This document shows positions 34,077 to 38,742 of a stretch of 38,742 nt of DNA, piece by piece. The position numbers and the translations under genes were made by a program. The stretch comes from Rhizobium sp. Q54 (GTDB taxonomy: Bacteria; Pseudomonadota; Alphaproteobacteria; Rhizobiales; Beijerinckiaceae): assembly GCA_945878875.1 (NCBI GenBank), contig CAMCUC010000025.1, forward strand, positions 1 to 38,742, given 5' to 3'. The notes under the pieces were generated by a model. The model was not told where the DNA came from. It did no database searches and saw only the letters and a list, made by a program, of their open reading frames with translations. Each line of letters starts with the position of its first letter. Position 1 is the first letter of the stretch.

Positions 34077-34152
<76 letters not shown>

Positions 34153-34266
34153 AAACTTTCCGATAGAATCTTTGTTCAGTTCTTTGCTCGCTTTGGCACT
34201 TGGGCTTTTAGCCTTCATGGCTGTTGCGCCAGTGGCGCTCGCTGTTTCATCGACCATGATTCCAAC

Positions 34267-34402
34267 GCGTCATGGCCGTCCCTGGACTTGATCCGGGGAT
34301 CCGTCCCGGCAACCCACGCCGACGTGAGCCTCGCGGCTGACAGCATAAAGCCACGGCTTGCGCCGTTTGCCTGAATGGACGGGTCAAGCCCGTCCATGAC
34401 GG
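34267..34402. repeat. Interspersed palindromic repeat, CGTCATGGCCG variant (copy 3)
   Basis: About 115 bases after tRNA-Ala. Begins GCGTCATGGCCGTCCCTGGA, and the right arm reads GGACGGGTCAAGCCCGTCCA then TGACGG, so the ends form an inverted repeat typical of longer versions of the CGTCATSSCCGG elements. No protein is encoded here. With the element at 34456 it accounts for most of the 34153-34572 stretch. Confidence 0.65.
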
Positions 34403-34455
34403 CCTCAGCATGTGCGTTTTGTCTTGCAGCGATGCGTCTTGCAGAAGCGCCACCT

Positions 34456-34572
34456 TCGGACGGCGGGCTTCCAGCCCGCACCTTTTTATGCCGGCGACTG
34501 TGCGCAATCAGCCGTGACGCCTATTCTTCCCGGCGCCCCATGCGGGCTGGAAACCCGCGGTCCAAAGAGACC
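34456..34572. repeat. Hairpin repeat element, left copy (A)
   Basis: Two inverted arms, GGACGGCGGGCTTCCAGCCC then GCA on the left and TGCGGGCTGGAAACCCGCGG then TCC on the right, separated by about 60 bases. The last 37 bases (34536-34572) match 37684-37720 with one difference. It is the 3' flank of a relic gene, exactly as the right copy is the 3' flank of the intact gene at 37721. Looks like a REP-doublet or MITE-like element; contains GCGGTCCAAAG (34557-34567). Confidence 0.7.
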
Positions 34573-34697
34573 TTGCCGTCGCAGCCAGGCCTATCCAAAC
34601 AACAGCTGGCTGATTCGGCGCGTTTCGATGCGATGGAATCCGCAGCTGGTCCATGCGCGGTCCCCGGCGCCCGGTCCGTCCTTGCCCAAAGGCGCGC
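34573..34697 (-). pseudogene. Decayed, internally deleted copy of the small membrane-protein gene found at 37721-38050
   Basis: The minus strand reads GAPLGKDGPGAGDRAW then TSCGFHRIETRRIS, which lines up with GSPLGDEGPGAGDRAW then SSYGFQRIEMRRIS of the intact gene. It then jumps across the membrane helices to a stop and AWLRR, the last residues of the intact protein. Over 83 aligned bases (34610-34692 against 37869-37951) I count nine mismatches. The N-terminal 30 or so codons are missing: the copy ends where the recombinase frame closes at 34701. There is no start codon and an in-frame stop, so it is non-functional. Confidence 0.8.
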
Positions 34698-34700
34698 CGC

Positions 34701-35165
34701 CTACATCGTCGACCAGCGTCCGCCGCGATATTCCTTCGACGCGGGCATGTTTTTCGTCGACTTCGGTCGCTCGTTTAAAATAGCAAATTCCCAGTCTGCG
34801 GTGGCCGACAGGATTTCAATGGTCCGTCTCGACTCCGGCTTGGACGTTTCGAAAACAGAACCGCCAAACATCAGAACACGCAAGGACGCGCCGTGATCAG
34901 CCAATTGCTCGATCACGTCCATCAATTCTCCTGCGGACTTGGCGATCCGGTCGATGCTGGTCACGACCAGCACGTCGCCCTCGCGCATGAAGCTCAGCGC
35001 GGTCTCCTTCTCGCTGCGTTTGCGCGAGGTTTCGCTCGTGTCGGTGAAGAATTTGATGCACCCGGCGGCTCTAAGGACACGCTCCTGATTCTGGACCCCG
35101 CTGCCGTCAAGGCCAAGCGGATCCAACTTCTCGGTGGGCGAAGAACGGCAATAGCCAATCAGCAT
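34701..35165 (-). CDS. Serine recombinase (resolvase/invertase) catalytic domain, truncated before the DNA-binding domain
   Basis: About 154 residues. The N-terminus MLIGYCRSSP aligns with the resolvase YARVS motif, with the second Ser as the probable nucleophile. EGDVLVVTSIDRIAKSAGELMDVIEQLADHGASL matches the family core (usual DRLARS; the second Arg is Lys here). The E-helix region (EILSATADWEFAILNERPKS) follows, but then the protein stops with no helix-turn-helix. The usual RP(E/G)L arginine segment is also altered (SETSRKRSEKE). The frame closes at the border of the relic gene, so the 3' part was probably lost in a rearrangement. ATG 35165 has AGGA nine bases upstream; ATG 35174 is in frame. 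Probably inactive or only able to bind as a heterodimer; type uncertain between gene and pseudogene. Confidence 0.75.
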   Translation of the reverse strand: MLIGYCRSSPTEKLDPLGLDGSGVQNQERVLRAAGCIKFFTDTSETSRKRSEKETALSFMREGDVLVVTSIDRIAKSAGELMDVIEQLADHGASLRVLMFGGSVFETSKPESRRTIEILSATADWEFAILNERPKSTKNMPASKEYRGGRWSTM

Positions 35166-35244
35166 CTTATGCATTCCTGTTGTTAAGGCTGCTCGGGACT
35201 TCCTGGGACAAGGTTCAGACCAGACCGCCGAATCGAAGGACTAT

Positions 35245-35302
35245 TTCACATTAATAATCATATATGATATTAGATTATCATAATTTTATGTCAATCTGTC
35301 AA
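35245..35302. promoter_or_regulatory. AT-rich divergent promoter region with a 12-bp palindrome between recombinase and response regulator
   Basis: Minus strand: TTGACA (complement of 35297-35302), 17 bases, GATAAT (complement of 35274-35279), near the sigma-70 consensus and pointing to the recombinase. Plus strand: TTCACA (35245-35250), 17 bases, TATTAG (35268-35273), pointing to the response regulator. The perfect palindrome ATCATATATGAT (35257-35268) lies inside the plus-strand spacer and at the expected minus-strand start. It could be an operator shared by both genes or a recombinase res subsite. The rest of 35166-35472 contains nothing else I can support. Confidence 0.5.
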
Positions 35303-35472
35303 AATCTAGACGCTCCGGAGCCTTCCAAACCTAGAGATTACCTCCTCTTTCGTTGCGGCATTGACGCTGTCGCCATCGGCAAGAGGACCAAAGTCAAGCC
35401 TTGAAACTTGCAATTTTCAGTCTGATCAATCAAACAGAAAACAGATCTCACCAGTGGAATGTATTTCGTACC

Positions 35473-36162
35473 ATGGCTGCCGACACGCAACGCCTGTGCA
35501 TCATCGACGACGATAAGGATTATGGCGAATTTCTCGCTGATTTCTTGCGCTCTCAGGGTTTTGACGTCGATTTGTTTACCTCTGGGGCGGATTTCATCCG
35601 CGACGGGACCGCAGATAGATATGATTTTTTTCTGATCGACCTCGGCCTTCCCGGCATCGACGGCGTCGATCTCATCATATTGCTTCGAGCCAAGTCCCGC
35701 GCCGGCATCATCATCATCAGTGGACGTATGGGGCCCGACGCCTTCAATTCAGGGCTTTCCGCCGGCGCCGACATGTTTCTCAACAAGCCCGTCCGTTTCG
35801 ATCAGGTACTGCAGGCCATCAAGACGGTAAGCCGCCGGATCACAACAGGAGATGGCGGGCAAACCTCGTGGACGCTCAGCGTGCGCGCCTCCGAGTTAAA
35901 GTGCTCCAACGGCCTTGCTGCGCAATTGACGGCCCTGGAATTGCGGATGCTTCAACTTCTCGCGGAGGCTGGCGAGGGCGGCATAGATCGCATGAGCCTC
36001 AGTGCAAACGTGAGCATACAGGAAACAGGTTCGTCGCGTAATCTTGACGCAGCGGTTTTTCGGCTGCGCAAGAAGATTGAGCAAGCCACCCAAAGGCCGG
36101 CGCCTATTCGCACATTGCACGCCATTGGTTACTCCATCACCGGCCAGGTAAGCATCGACTAG
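35473..36162 (+). CDS. OmpR/PhoB-family response regulator
   Basis: 229 residues: a receiver domain (1-120) with acidic pocket IIDDDKD, phosphoacceptor Asp56 in FFLIDLGLPGIDG, Ser83 and Lys105 (NKPV), then a winged-helix DNA-binding domain (about 140-229) with LTALELRMLQLLAEAGEGGIDR, SRNLDAAVFRLRKKIEQ and IRTLHAIGYSIT. ATG 35473 begins just before the receiver fold; a TTG at 35401 in frame would add 24 residues and has AGAGGA upstream, so the start is not certain. The kinase gene begins 21 bases downstream, forming a two-component operon. Base composition is more AT-rich than the housekeeping genes. Targets are unknown; autoregulation at the upstream palindrome is possible. Confidence 0.92.
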   Translation: MAADTQRLCIIDDDKDYGEFLADFLRSQGFDVDLFTSGADFIRDGTADRYDFFLIDLGLPGIDGVDLIILLRAKSRAGIIIISGRMGPDAFNSGLSAGADMFLNKPVRFDQVLQAIKTVSRRITTGDGGQTSWTLSVRASELKCSNGLAAQLTALELRMLQLLAEAGEGGIDRMSLSANVSIQETGSSRNLDAAVFRLRKKIEQATQRPAPIRTLHAIGYSITGQVSID

Positions 36163-36183
36163 CTCAATCAGGGTGAGGCGTGC

Positions 36184-37569
36184 GTGTATAATCAAGTTTG
36201 GATGGTGCACTTCTGGTTGCTGCTCGCGGTTGCATCCACGATCGCCGCCTTGTGGCTGCTAACGGGCAAGAGGAGCCTGAAATACTGGTTCTTGTCGGAT
36301 ATCGTCGCCTTGGCGAGCCTTACCCTTTTTTATAATGACCCCGAAAATCGGAGCATAATCCACCTTATCGCTTTTCCACTGTTTTCATGGCTGATGATAT
36401 ACTTGCGGCTTGTCGCGGTGGCACAGCAAGAATTTGTTCAAAGTATTCAGCGCTACGCTTTCGGCTGCGCTGCAGGCCTCATCGCAATCAGGCTCGCAAT
36501 CTATCCCAATGTGGACAGTCCAAGCCTTCTCGCAGCAAATTCTTTCCTGTTCTCCATCCTCGCCATAATGATGCTCGTGGCTATCCTACGCAACAAGGAA
36601 TGGGGCGTCACATTCGGCAGCATCCTCGTCATGCTGTCTACCTTTATCTATGTTCTTGTTAGCCTCTTTCGCGGCGTATCAATGATCTACGGGCCAACCG
36701 GTATTTTCATGAATACGCAAACAATTTATCTATCGGGATCGACCGGTATCATAGTTACCGCAGTGGCCGCCCACCTCGGCTTCATCATCATGGTGTTCGA
36801 GAAAATGCATCGGTCGCAAATGCTTTCCGTAGCGCAGATCGCGCGGGAAGCTGCAGGACGCGAGCAAGCCGAAAAGCGTGAACTCGAAATCCAGCGCGTC
36901 TCCGAAGAACAAAAGGCGTTGATCGAAGTCCTTACGCACGAAGTGCGCCAGCCGCTCAACAACGCCTCCGCCGCTCTCCAGTCTATTACGCACGAACTGG
37001 CTGTCGATAAAGCGCCACGTCACCTGGAGGCCGTCTTGCGCGCCCAGAGCGTCATCGAAAACGTCAGCACAGCGCTCTCAAATGCTCTTATTGCGGCCAC
37101 CATCCTGGAGCGTCAGCAAAAGTTCTACCCGGCGCGCTGCGAACCCGTCGCTATAGCTGAAATCGTTGCGCTCGATTTCAACAGTCCCGACCGCAAGCGA
37201 ATTAGGATAGTGGCGGCTAACGCCCCCCTTTTCATTACGGTTGATCCAATTCTCATGCGCATTGCTCTGCGCAATTTGTTCGACAACGCGCTGCGCTATG
37301 GATTGGCTGATTCAGAAGTGCTGGTCGAAATTTATGAAGATGAAGCGCGCATGGGCGTCGTGTTCAACATCTCCAACGAGGAGACTGATCCCACATGGAG
37401 CGACGGGGTCGATATCTTCGCCCGCCGGGTGCGGGGCGCCAGCCCGAAGATCAGCGGTTCGGGGATGGGTCTTTATATCGCAGCCGAAATCGCCAAGCTT
37501 CATAAGGGGTCGCTCACGACGCACGTGGCGGGCGGGCACCGAGTTTTCTGCCTGTTCCTCGGCGACTAA
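36184..37569 (+). CDS. Polytopic sensor histidine kinase with a degenerate ATP-binding G1 box
   Basis: 461 residues from GTG 36184. The N-terminal 215 residues contain about seven hydrophobic helices with short loops and no large periplasmic domain, so the signal is probably sensed in the membrane. A coiled coil (about 218-247) leads to HisKA with the H-box EVLTHEVRQPLNN (His252). The ATPase domain has the N-box RNLFDNALRYG (Asn368) and the G2 box GSGMGLYIA (425-433), but the G1 box DxGxG is replaced by SNEETDP. Some kinases with NEGPPI-type boxes are active, so this need not mean loss of function. Partner of the regulator just upstream. AT-rich relative to the window; part of the module between the duplicated flanks. 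Confidence 0.9.
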   Translation: MYNQVWMVHFWLLLAVASTIAALWLLTGKRSLKYWFLSDIVALASLTLFYNDPENRSIIHLIAFPLFSWLMIYLRLVAVAQQEFVQSIQRYAFGCAAGLIAIRLAIYPNVDSPSLLAANSFLFSILAIMMLVAILRNKEWGVTFGSILVMLSTFIYVLVSLFRGVSMIYGPTGIFMNTQTIYLSGSTGIIVTAVAAHLGFIIMVFEKMHRSQMLSVAQIAREAAGREQAEKRELEIQRVSEEQKALIEVLTHEVRQPLNNASAALQSITHELAVDKAPRHLEAVLRAQSVIENVSTALSNALIAATILERQQKFYPARCEPVAIAEIVALDFNSPDRKRIRIVAANAPLFITVDPILMRIALRNLFDNALRYGLADSEVLVEIYEDEARMGVVFNISNEETDPTWSDGVDIFARRVRGASPKISGSGMGLYIAAEIAKLHKGSLTTHVAGGHRVFCLFLGD

Positions 37570-37612
37570 ACGGACATAAGAACGCGCCGGCGCGCACCCG
37601 AGGCTGGCGGTT

Positions 37613-37720
37613 TGTTTTGGGCCGCGGGTTTCCTGCCCGCATTCTTGTCAGCCGCAGTGCCGCTGGCGTTCTTTTCTGCCGGCCCCCATGCGGGCTGGAA
37701 GCCCGCGGTCCAAAGAGACC
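37613..37720. repeat. Hairpin repeat element, right copy (B)
   Basis: Arms GGGCCGCGGGTTTCCTGCCC then GCA on the left and TGCGGGCTGGAAGCCCGCGG then TCC on the right, with about 45 bases between. Bases 37684-37720 match 34536-34572 with one difference. It fills the gap between the convergent kinase gene and the small membrane-protein gene and may terminate both. Contains GCGGTCCAAAG at 37705-37715. Confidence 0.7.
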
Positions 37721-38050
37721 CTAACGCCGCAAAACCCGCCGCAGCCACGCCGCGCCGAACGATAGCGCGGCGAGACCGGCGATGATGGGGAGCGCGATCA
37801 GCATGGTTCCGGCGATCAGCACGAGCAGGCTCAACGCGATCAGCGCCCATATGAACAGGCGCAGCGGGCTGATACGGCGCATTTCGATGCGCTGGAATCC
37901 GTAGCTGCTCCATGCGCGGTCCCCGGCGCCCGGCCCCTCGTCGCCCAAAGGGGAGCCCGGGCGCGTCGGCGGCAGGATTTCGGGCTCGCTGCGCGGGGTC
38001 TCTGGGCTTGGGCGCGAATCGGGGCCGTGTTTAAAGGGCTCGTCAGCCAT
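37721..38050 (-). CDS. Small membrane protein of unknown function (109 aa)
   Basis: A proline- and charge-rich cytoplasmic N-terminus of about 60 residues (MADEPFKHGPDSRPSPETPRSEPEILPPTRPGSPLGDEGPGAGDRAWSS is its general character) is followed by a hydrophobic stretch of about 40 residues that can form two helices (LFIWALIALSLLVLIAGTML and IALPIIAGLAALSFGAAWL) and a basic end RRVLRR. I do not recognise a named family. A decayed second copy lies at 34573-34697. ATG 38050 is the natural start. Its 3' end overlaps the hairpin repeat border. Confidence 0.78.
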   Translation of the reverse strand: MADEPFKHGPDSRPSPETPRSEPEILPPTRPGSPLGDEGPGAGDRAWSSYGFQRIEMRRISPLRLFIWALIALSLLVLIAGTMLIALPIIAGLAALSFGAAWLRRVLRR

Positions 38051-38171
38051 AATCCTGTTCCATATGGCGGGGCGTCCGCCGGTTTATGCTGCAATATAGC
38101 GCCGAATGCGGTTTATGACGATCAGCGTAGACACGAGGCTGCGGGCGTGTTTCACCATCATGCCCTTAATG

Positions 38172-38253
38172 CGTCATCCCGGCGAAGGCCGGGATCCACG
38201 GCAGGGTTTGAGCTTGTGGCTTGCCGTGGATGGCCGCCTTCGCGACCATGACG
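38172..38253. repeat. Interspersed palindromic repeat, CGTCATCCCGGC type (copy 4)
   Basis: Starts CGTCATCCCGGCGAAGGCCG, contains ATCCACGGCAG and TTGCCGTGGATGGCCG, and ends CCATGACG. Inner arms ATCCACGGCA / TTGCCGTGGAT form a stem. It occupies part of the 280-base region between the small membrane-protein gene and the methyltransferase gene; I see no gene in the rest of that region. Confidence 0.8.
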
Positions 38254-38330
38254 CGATTGGCGCCTTTCAAAATCAAGCGGCAAGCAGAGCTGCTGCAATA
38301 TGCAATTCACCAATTGAAGCGCCGGGGATC

Positions 38331-38742
38331 ATGATCGAGATCGAGTTTGAAAACGTTTACGGCGCGCCGATGGAGGCGCTGGTGGGCGCCTATTCCGGCG
38401 CCGCGCAATTCTCGCCGCTTAGCCCCGGCGCGCAATGCCTGTCGGAGGCGCCTGCGGGCTCGCTGAACGGTTTGGCCATGCTTGCGCCTGCGGGCACGGT
38501 GGAGCGGCGCTATGCCCTCGCGCTGGCGCTCAGGGCGCTGAAGCCCGGCGCGTGCCTGATCGCGCTTGCGCCCAAGGACAAGGGCGGCTCGCGCCTCGCG
38601 CAGGATTTGGAAATATTGGGCTGCGCGTTTACCGAATCGGCCAAGCGGCACCATCGTATTTGCGTCACGCAAGGCCCCGGCGATTCGGCCGCTATCGAGG
38701 CGGCGCTGACTGAGGGCGCGCCGCGCCTGCTGGAGGAGCTGG
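38331..38742 (+). CDS. RsmC-like class I SAM-dependent methyltransferase, N-terminal part (3' truncated by window edge)
   Basis: An open frame from ATG 38331 runs off the right edge (137 residues so far). The N-terminal part GLAMLAPAGTVERRYALALALRALKPGACLIALAPKDKGGSRLAQDLEILGC then KRHHRICV resembles the non-catalytic first domain of small-subunit rRNA guanine-N2 methyltransferases (RsmC type), in which KDKGG and KRHHR are conserved in alphaproteobacterial members. The catalytic domain with its NPPF motif would lie beyond the window, so function is an inference from the first half. No strong ribosome-binding site; GGGGATC precedes the ATG. Confidence 0.75.
   Translation, partial: MIEIEFENVYGAPMEALVGAYSGAAQFSPLSPGAQCLSEAPAGSLNGLAMLAPAGTVERRYALALALRALKPGACLIALAPKDKGGSRLAQDLEILGCAFTESAKRHHRICVTQGPGDSAAIEAALTEGAPRLLEEL

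Follow-up and report, generated by a model that had tools for sequence, protein, structure and literature searches.

How did a gene for a serine recombinase-like protein and a pair of two-component genes come to lie beside a tRNA gene and between two direct repeats located some 3.2 kb apart? The question arises near the right end of the window, by which we mean the whole stretch of DNA analysed, 38,742 nucleotides that make up all of contig C25 in the 2.84-Mb, 91-contig assembly of Rhizobium sp. Q54 (hereinafter G000). An earlier note on the same DNA had read the arrangement as an integration that duplicated its target locus, with subsequent decay of the redundant copy. The comparisons described here largely bear out the insertion with duplication as well as the decay of the left copy, but remove one of the two repeats from the evidence. 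Our best explanation, to which we assign a probability of roughly 60%, is that the locus is the scar of an insertion of DNA between the tRNA-Ala gene and a gene for a small membrane protein, at a spot that often receives foreign DNA.

Two repeats of different nature

The repeat search recovered two direct repeats around the module, one of 96 nt (34603-34698 and 37862-37957; 88% identity, spacing 3259) and one of 48 nt (34536-34583 and 37684-37731; 90% identity, spacing 3148), and thereby showed that the coordinates and mismatch rates previously counted by hand for a 37-base and an 83-base match are correct, as is the observation that both blocks occur in the same order and orientation. The longer block gives an E-value of 6.9e-28 in a whole-genome search of the window genome, and its translation matches residues 31-64 of the small protein with 71% identity (E 1.9e-10). 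The shorter one belongs to palindrome pairs located at 34454-34567 on the left and at 37616-37715 on the right (neither with an assigned strand), which were delineated by repeat search and alignment and, for the left pair, also by genome search. A query of 34440-34760 against the window genome yielded 80 matches, mostly to the palindrome, which is thus repeated genome-wide; the inverted pairs and the many copies are the features it has in common with dispersed palindromes of the REP/REPIN kind, the family to which we take it to belong. The bit score of the right palindrome block (68.0) is no better than those of unrelated loci on contigs C15 (70.7) and C10 (68.0) and only a little above that of a third on C41 (63.5), and alignment of both copies with five other genomic loci indicates that the letters following the hairpin (GGTCCAAAG or close to it) are part of the element family. 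Hence the 37-base match is no evidence of a duplicated locus: the block is a member of a dispersed REP-like palindrome and, alone, proves nothing. The 96-nt gene block, by contrast, does count as such evidence.

The possibility that the two repeats are attachment sites of an integrative element is ruled out, one being a dispersed palindrome and the other a decayed gene fragment. Nor were the marks of a transposon found, inverted repeats at the termini and a short, exact duplication of the target: besides the REP-like palindromes, there is no inverted match of 8 bases or more between the two ends of the module, and the flanking repeats are only 88-90% alike. An 11-base string, GGTTTGTTTTG, that follows the resolvase gene in one relative, G022, and precedes the right palindrome in the window was considered as an element end; a second relative, G699, has the string at neither end, and we treat it as a chance occurrence.

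The gene from which the longer block derives is intact in its right copy (37721-38050, minus strand), as had been claimed: it encodes a protein of 109 aa that is 97% identical in G022, with dN 0.018 and dS 0.190 between the two genomes. The left copy (34603-34699, minus strand; found by repeat and protein search and by alignment) is a fragment corresponding to residues about 31-64, and its alignment with the right copy and with the genes of G022 and G699 agrees with the earlier statement that it lacks the membrane helices, the part coding for the hydrophobic helices being absent. Over 32 codons, the two copies differ at 12 bases, 10 of which fall in codons with a changed residue (dN 0.135, dS 0.141); because these two values are nearly equal, in contrast to those of the intact gene, the left fragment decays without constraint. 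Its divergence puts the age of the fragment at about that of the split from G022; as to whether duplication or split came first, the informative sites disagree, with one for each order in our reading of the alignment. In a search of 61 genomes, a set to which G699 does not belong, eight had a match to the small gene, the window genome included, and only the window genome had two; the single match in G022 is 97% identical, and those in the remaining six genomes, likewise one each, are at 41-54%.

The tRNA-Ala gene and the sites without the module

The tRNA-Ala (GGC) gene that had been recognized beside the module was confirmed by tRNA prediction at 34077-34152 (plus strand). Its conserved upstream neighbour is a gene of the FYDLN_acid family (PF09538; 33523-33891, plus strand), and the spacer that follows it contains a dispersed repeat of about 145 bases (34259-34403, no strand) with matches on several G022 contigs. 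The conserved right neighbour of the locus is an RsmC-like methyltransferase gene, of which the window holds the 5' part up to the contig end (38331-38742, plus strand); the complete G022 methyltransferase matches PF05175 and, below cut-off, RsmC. Between the small gene and the methyltransferase gene there is an inverted repeat with 33-base arms (38171-38254).

Of 30 tRNA-Ala loci from the genus, counting that of the window, the FYDLN gene lies upstream in 27 and an EPSP synthase gene in 24. Downstream, no sequence in common with the window was found in the 25 other loci that have more than 30 bases there (19 have more than 1 kb), although these stretches, of at most 1.5 kb, are too short to reach a small gene 3.5 kb away. 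Internal copies of the tRNA-Ala 3' end, 47-55 bases long and located where ARAGORN predicts no tRNA, are present in at least 5 of the 51 genomes of the genus (G022, G025, G032, G036 and G699), a count that leaves out G721, in which the copy lies at a contig end, and matches of 26-45 bases in G007, G009, G026 and G738. A whole tRNA-Ala copy is also present in G022, G025 and G032, and no whole tRNA-Ala(GGC) was found in the assemblies of G036 or G699. In G022, G032 and G036, an integrase-like gene lies beside the 3'-end copy; the G022 ORF matches the integrase family phrog_1 (5.5e-12) and no Pfam or NCBIfam model, and the ORFs of G032 and G036 are 54% and 45% identical to it, respectively. To judge from these genomes, the tRNA-Ala gene is an integration hotspot in the genus.

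Some further observations concern the same loci. The integrase-like family (L202:2170-3390, L199:2085-2531 and L078:88-879 in G032, G036 and G022, respectively) varies in length, with 263 aa in G022 and 406 aa in G032. In G025 (L201:167-1714), the copied tRNA 3' end is separated by a few hundred bases from an ORF of 515 aa, by its looks a large serine recombinase. In G035 (L141:523-1733), a distant relative of the small gene is located upstream, not downstream, of FYDLN and tRNA-Ala.

Comparable elements are the genomic islands and integrative mobilizable elements that occupy the 3' ends of tRNA genes (PMC5704250). The window resembles them in having variable DNA right after the tRNA gene, and the relatives resemble them in having a copied tRNA 3' end, with an integrase-like gene adjoining in three; the module differs from them in that it has neither an integrase nor a second tRNA 3' end and that the flanking repeat is a gene fragment. 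The three gene-sized ORFs at 34.7-37.6 kb encode the resolvase-like protein, the regulator and the kinase only, with no integrase gene among them. When the window genome was searched with tRNA-Ala(GGC), the only full match was that on C25, and other contigs had two weak matches (81% and 74%); C25 showed no partial 3'-end copy, the right side of the module included. Thus, neither the far-side 3'-end copy nor the integrase gene of a tRNA-bounded integrative element was found in the module.

The earlier note had proposed a comparison with related genomes for an empty site. In G022, the assembly of which is 76% complete, contig C146 has the left flank as far as the end of the tRNA. Contig C220 reproduces 51 bases of the tRNA 3' end exactly (window 34107-34157), after which come a palindrome pair, a single small gene and the methyltransferase gene. 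On contig C334 of G699, a 48-base exact copy is followed by one small gene (the count of small genes covers C334) and the methyltransferase gene. The module is absent from the C220 and C334 sites, but neither is a clean empty site because, in both, other DNA adjoins the tRNA copy on its far side; the comparison thus yielded a single small gene after the tRNA 3' end in two relatives and no uninterrupted empty site. Since both relatives have the tRNA 3' end, the small gene and the methyltransferase gene without the module, the two-copy arrangement is probably derived.

The module and its resolvase-like protein

Pfam searches confirmed the response-regulator and kinase ATPase domains of the two-component pair and the Resolvase domain of the recombinase-like protein, in line with the earlier note. 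The response regulator (35473-36162, plus strand, in an ORF open from 35401) has a receiver and an output domain (PF00072 and PF00486), and the membrane sensor histidine kinase (36184-37569, plus strand) has the ATPase domain (PF02518) and a weak HisKA match (16.4 bits versus a cut-off of 26.9). The pair is like OmpR-type systems in the combination of the receiver with Trans_reg_C and in the membrane kinase encoded downstream; unlike in such systems, no NCBIfam cut-off is reached among the 25 models listed per protein (82 and 37 matched in all), and only one full-length relative of the kinase was found, at 67% identity in the Beijerinckiaceae record CANJPM010000140.1, where it is preceded by the end of its response regulator. 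The pair had been called AT-rich; the G+C content of the module is indeed lower, but only mildly so, at 54.1% versus 62.1% for the window.

When 61 genomes were searched with the kinase, the best match apart from that of the window genome was 30% identical over residues 209-448 (E 1.6e-13), and the matches listed are all partial and below 40%; a sample of 397 genomes from the order contained three others beyond E 1e-15, with 28-30% identity over a portion of the protein. For the resolvase-like protein, 76 of 397 genomes drawn from the family have a match at E 1e-15, and only those of G022 (97%) and G699 (78%) exceed 42%. In G022, the resolvase gene and the 5' part of the regulator gene lie on contig C155 near an ABC transporter (named from its ORFs, with solute-binding Pfam matches), and a 375-base regulator piece lies on C7 (L100:1-1334) near a DDE transposase gene. 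In G699 (C33 and C140), the resolvase gene is divergently oriented beside a decayed regulator gene, and a full-length kinase gene is on another contig. The loci in these two genomes indicate that the divergent resolvase and regulator genes recur in different surroundings, and the comparison supports a patchy distribution of the module genes, with occurrence at other loci in G022 and G699. No plasmid DNA match to 34700-37600 was found; plasmid matches to the kinase (59 records) are all below 60% identity, as are those to the resolvase (at least 5000 records) among the matches listed and phage matches to the resolvase (128 records), and viral contigs contained no relative of either protein. As far as paper titles go, the literature search produced none pointing to the locus or to resolvases without a DNA-binding domain beside response regulators.

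The least ordinary part of the locus is the resolvase-like protein itself (34701-35174, minus strand; PF00239), in which homology with G022 ends at 34700. It consists of 157 aa, compared with 181-206 aa in 29 family relatives (an alignment that omits two relatives with an inner stop, L146 and L051, and other fetched resolvase loci), and is devoid of the C-terminal part, presumably the helix-turn-helix. The protein stops at the matching place, within one residue, in the window genome, G022 and G699, so the description of a truncated serine recombinase is apt as to its anatomy but not as to a local truncation, the same short form being present in the two relatives. The catalytic serine, S12, is retained, as in 29 of 29 relatives, and so are R10, R76 and R136. 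The active-site arginines R79 and R130, which are arginines in all 29 relatives, are replaced in all three genomes, the former with K and the latter with F or S; G699 has lost R53 as well, and the short proteins depart from the relatives at many further conserved positions. Counting along the alignment places R79 and R130 at the positions of R71 and R119 in the gamma-delta enzyme, where R119 is important. For R71, a contact with the cleaved phosphate has been proposed (PMC4499144). The protein is thus like the small serine recombinases (Tn3/gamma-delta resolvase and DNA invertases) in the homology of the catalytic domain and in the catalytic serine, and unlike them in its 157-aa length without the C-terminal DNA-binding part and in the changed counterparts of R71 and R119; of the marks of an active enzyme, the serine is there, but the full set of conserved arginines and the C-terminal part are not. 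An active role for this recombinase is not supported.

Between the window and G699, the resolvase genes have a dN of 0.142 and a dS of 1.05 (dN/dS about 0.13, a rough value as dS is near 1), and the short form looks to be kept by selection. Between the window and G022 (dN 0.014, dS 0.028), there are five nonsynonymous and three synonymous differences, and in these alone no strong constraint is visible. It is conceivable, although we hold this only tentatively and with the odds against it, that the protein is a domesticated resolvase, which lost the DNA-binding domain and two arginines, was kept by selection beside the divergent regulator gene and could serve as a protein partner, for instance by forming pairs with recombinases of full length or by influencing the regulator; the scar then would be the trace of a regulatory cassette moving between strains.

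At third codon positions, the resolvase genes of G000 and G022 differ at 4 of 157 sites, compared with 143 of 1035 for five flanking genes taken together (Fisher p 7e-6), among which FYDLN is the lowest (8 of 122); the regulator pieces do not differ significantly from the background (6 of 87, p 0.07, for C155 and 17 of 124, p 1.0, for C7). These counts support the conclusion that the resolvase gene is too alike in the two genomes to share the history of the flanks and, because the difference is so far below that of the flanks, suggest that the gene was exchanged between the lineages after they parted. The resolvase-regulator stretch is a mosaic, as the window and G022 share only about 80% identity over 35360-35479 but are identical over 35600-35735.

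Origin of the arrangement

Under the insertion that we favor, the incoming segment would have carried the resolvase-like gene and the divergently transcribed two-component pair, and the event would have left a second, partial copy of the palindrome and the small gene on the tRNA side; this redundant left copy would then have lost the helix-coding part and decayed without constraint. As the likeliest route, a circle or segment in which the module already adjoined a piece of the locus would have integrated by homology; the end of the left copy at the end of the resolvase gene and the start of the right copy at the palindrome would both follow from this. We infer that integration by homology of such a segment gives the observed order most simply; the single event, the circle, the direction and the route of entry are likewise presumed. 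The partial copy, its neutral decay, the sites with one small gene in two relatives, the presence of the module genes elsewhere and the hotspot all speak for an insertion. Against our explanation stand the lack of a tRNA 3'-end copy at the right side of the module and of an uninterrupted empty site in either relative; moreover, the divergence of the left fragment, about that of the split between G000 and G022, and the much higher similarity of the resolvase genes misfit a single event without later exchange. The disagreement among the informative sites, the low count for FYDLN among the flanking genes and the background-like regulator pieces weigh on the same side.

An unlikely alternative is that the palindrome and the small gene were duplicated in tandem before the module entered the left copy, the 5' part of which was then lost. 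The order and orientation fit this scenario, and the left copy does look older than the similarity of the resolvase genes; none of its 5' part, however, is seen between the module and the right copy, and neither G022 nor G699 has the duplication without the module. Somewhat less probable still is the imprecise excision of an element integrated at tRNA-Ala, together with the palindrome and part of the small gene, followed by re-integration at the tRNA, as in specialised transduction, and later loss of the right attachment copy. Such a course predicts the observed order and could draw on the hotspot and the integrase-like genes of the relatives, but no tyrosine integrase is encoded by any of the three gene-sized ORFs at 34.7-37.6 kb, and the window contig has no partial tRNA 3'-end copy.

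The bin appears to hold two strain variants, given that the end of the window (38291-38742) overlaps that of contig C22 of G000 (40622-41073) over 452 bases at only 90% identity, so one could suppose that assembly joined pieces of two strains. We consider this quite improbable: no string of 12-15 bases across 34699/34700 recurs within the window, where the longest exact repeat of the left-copy region is 25 bases. The module homology with G022 stops at 34700 and the left gene fragment at 34699, one base apart, which makes 34699/34700 a real junction.

All in all, the locus is an ordinary islet scar at a known kind of hotspot, with one odd resolvase-like protein. It shows how dispersed palindromes can imitate the borders of a duplicated locus, and how a tRNA-adjacent hotspot changes and leaves behind a gene fragment as a datable scar. 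If the short protein is truly domesticated, it would present a testable case of a recombinase fold retained for another job.
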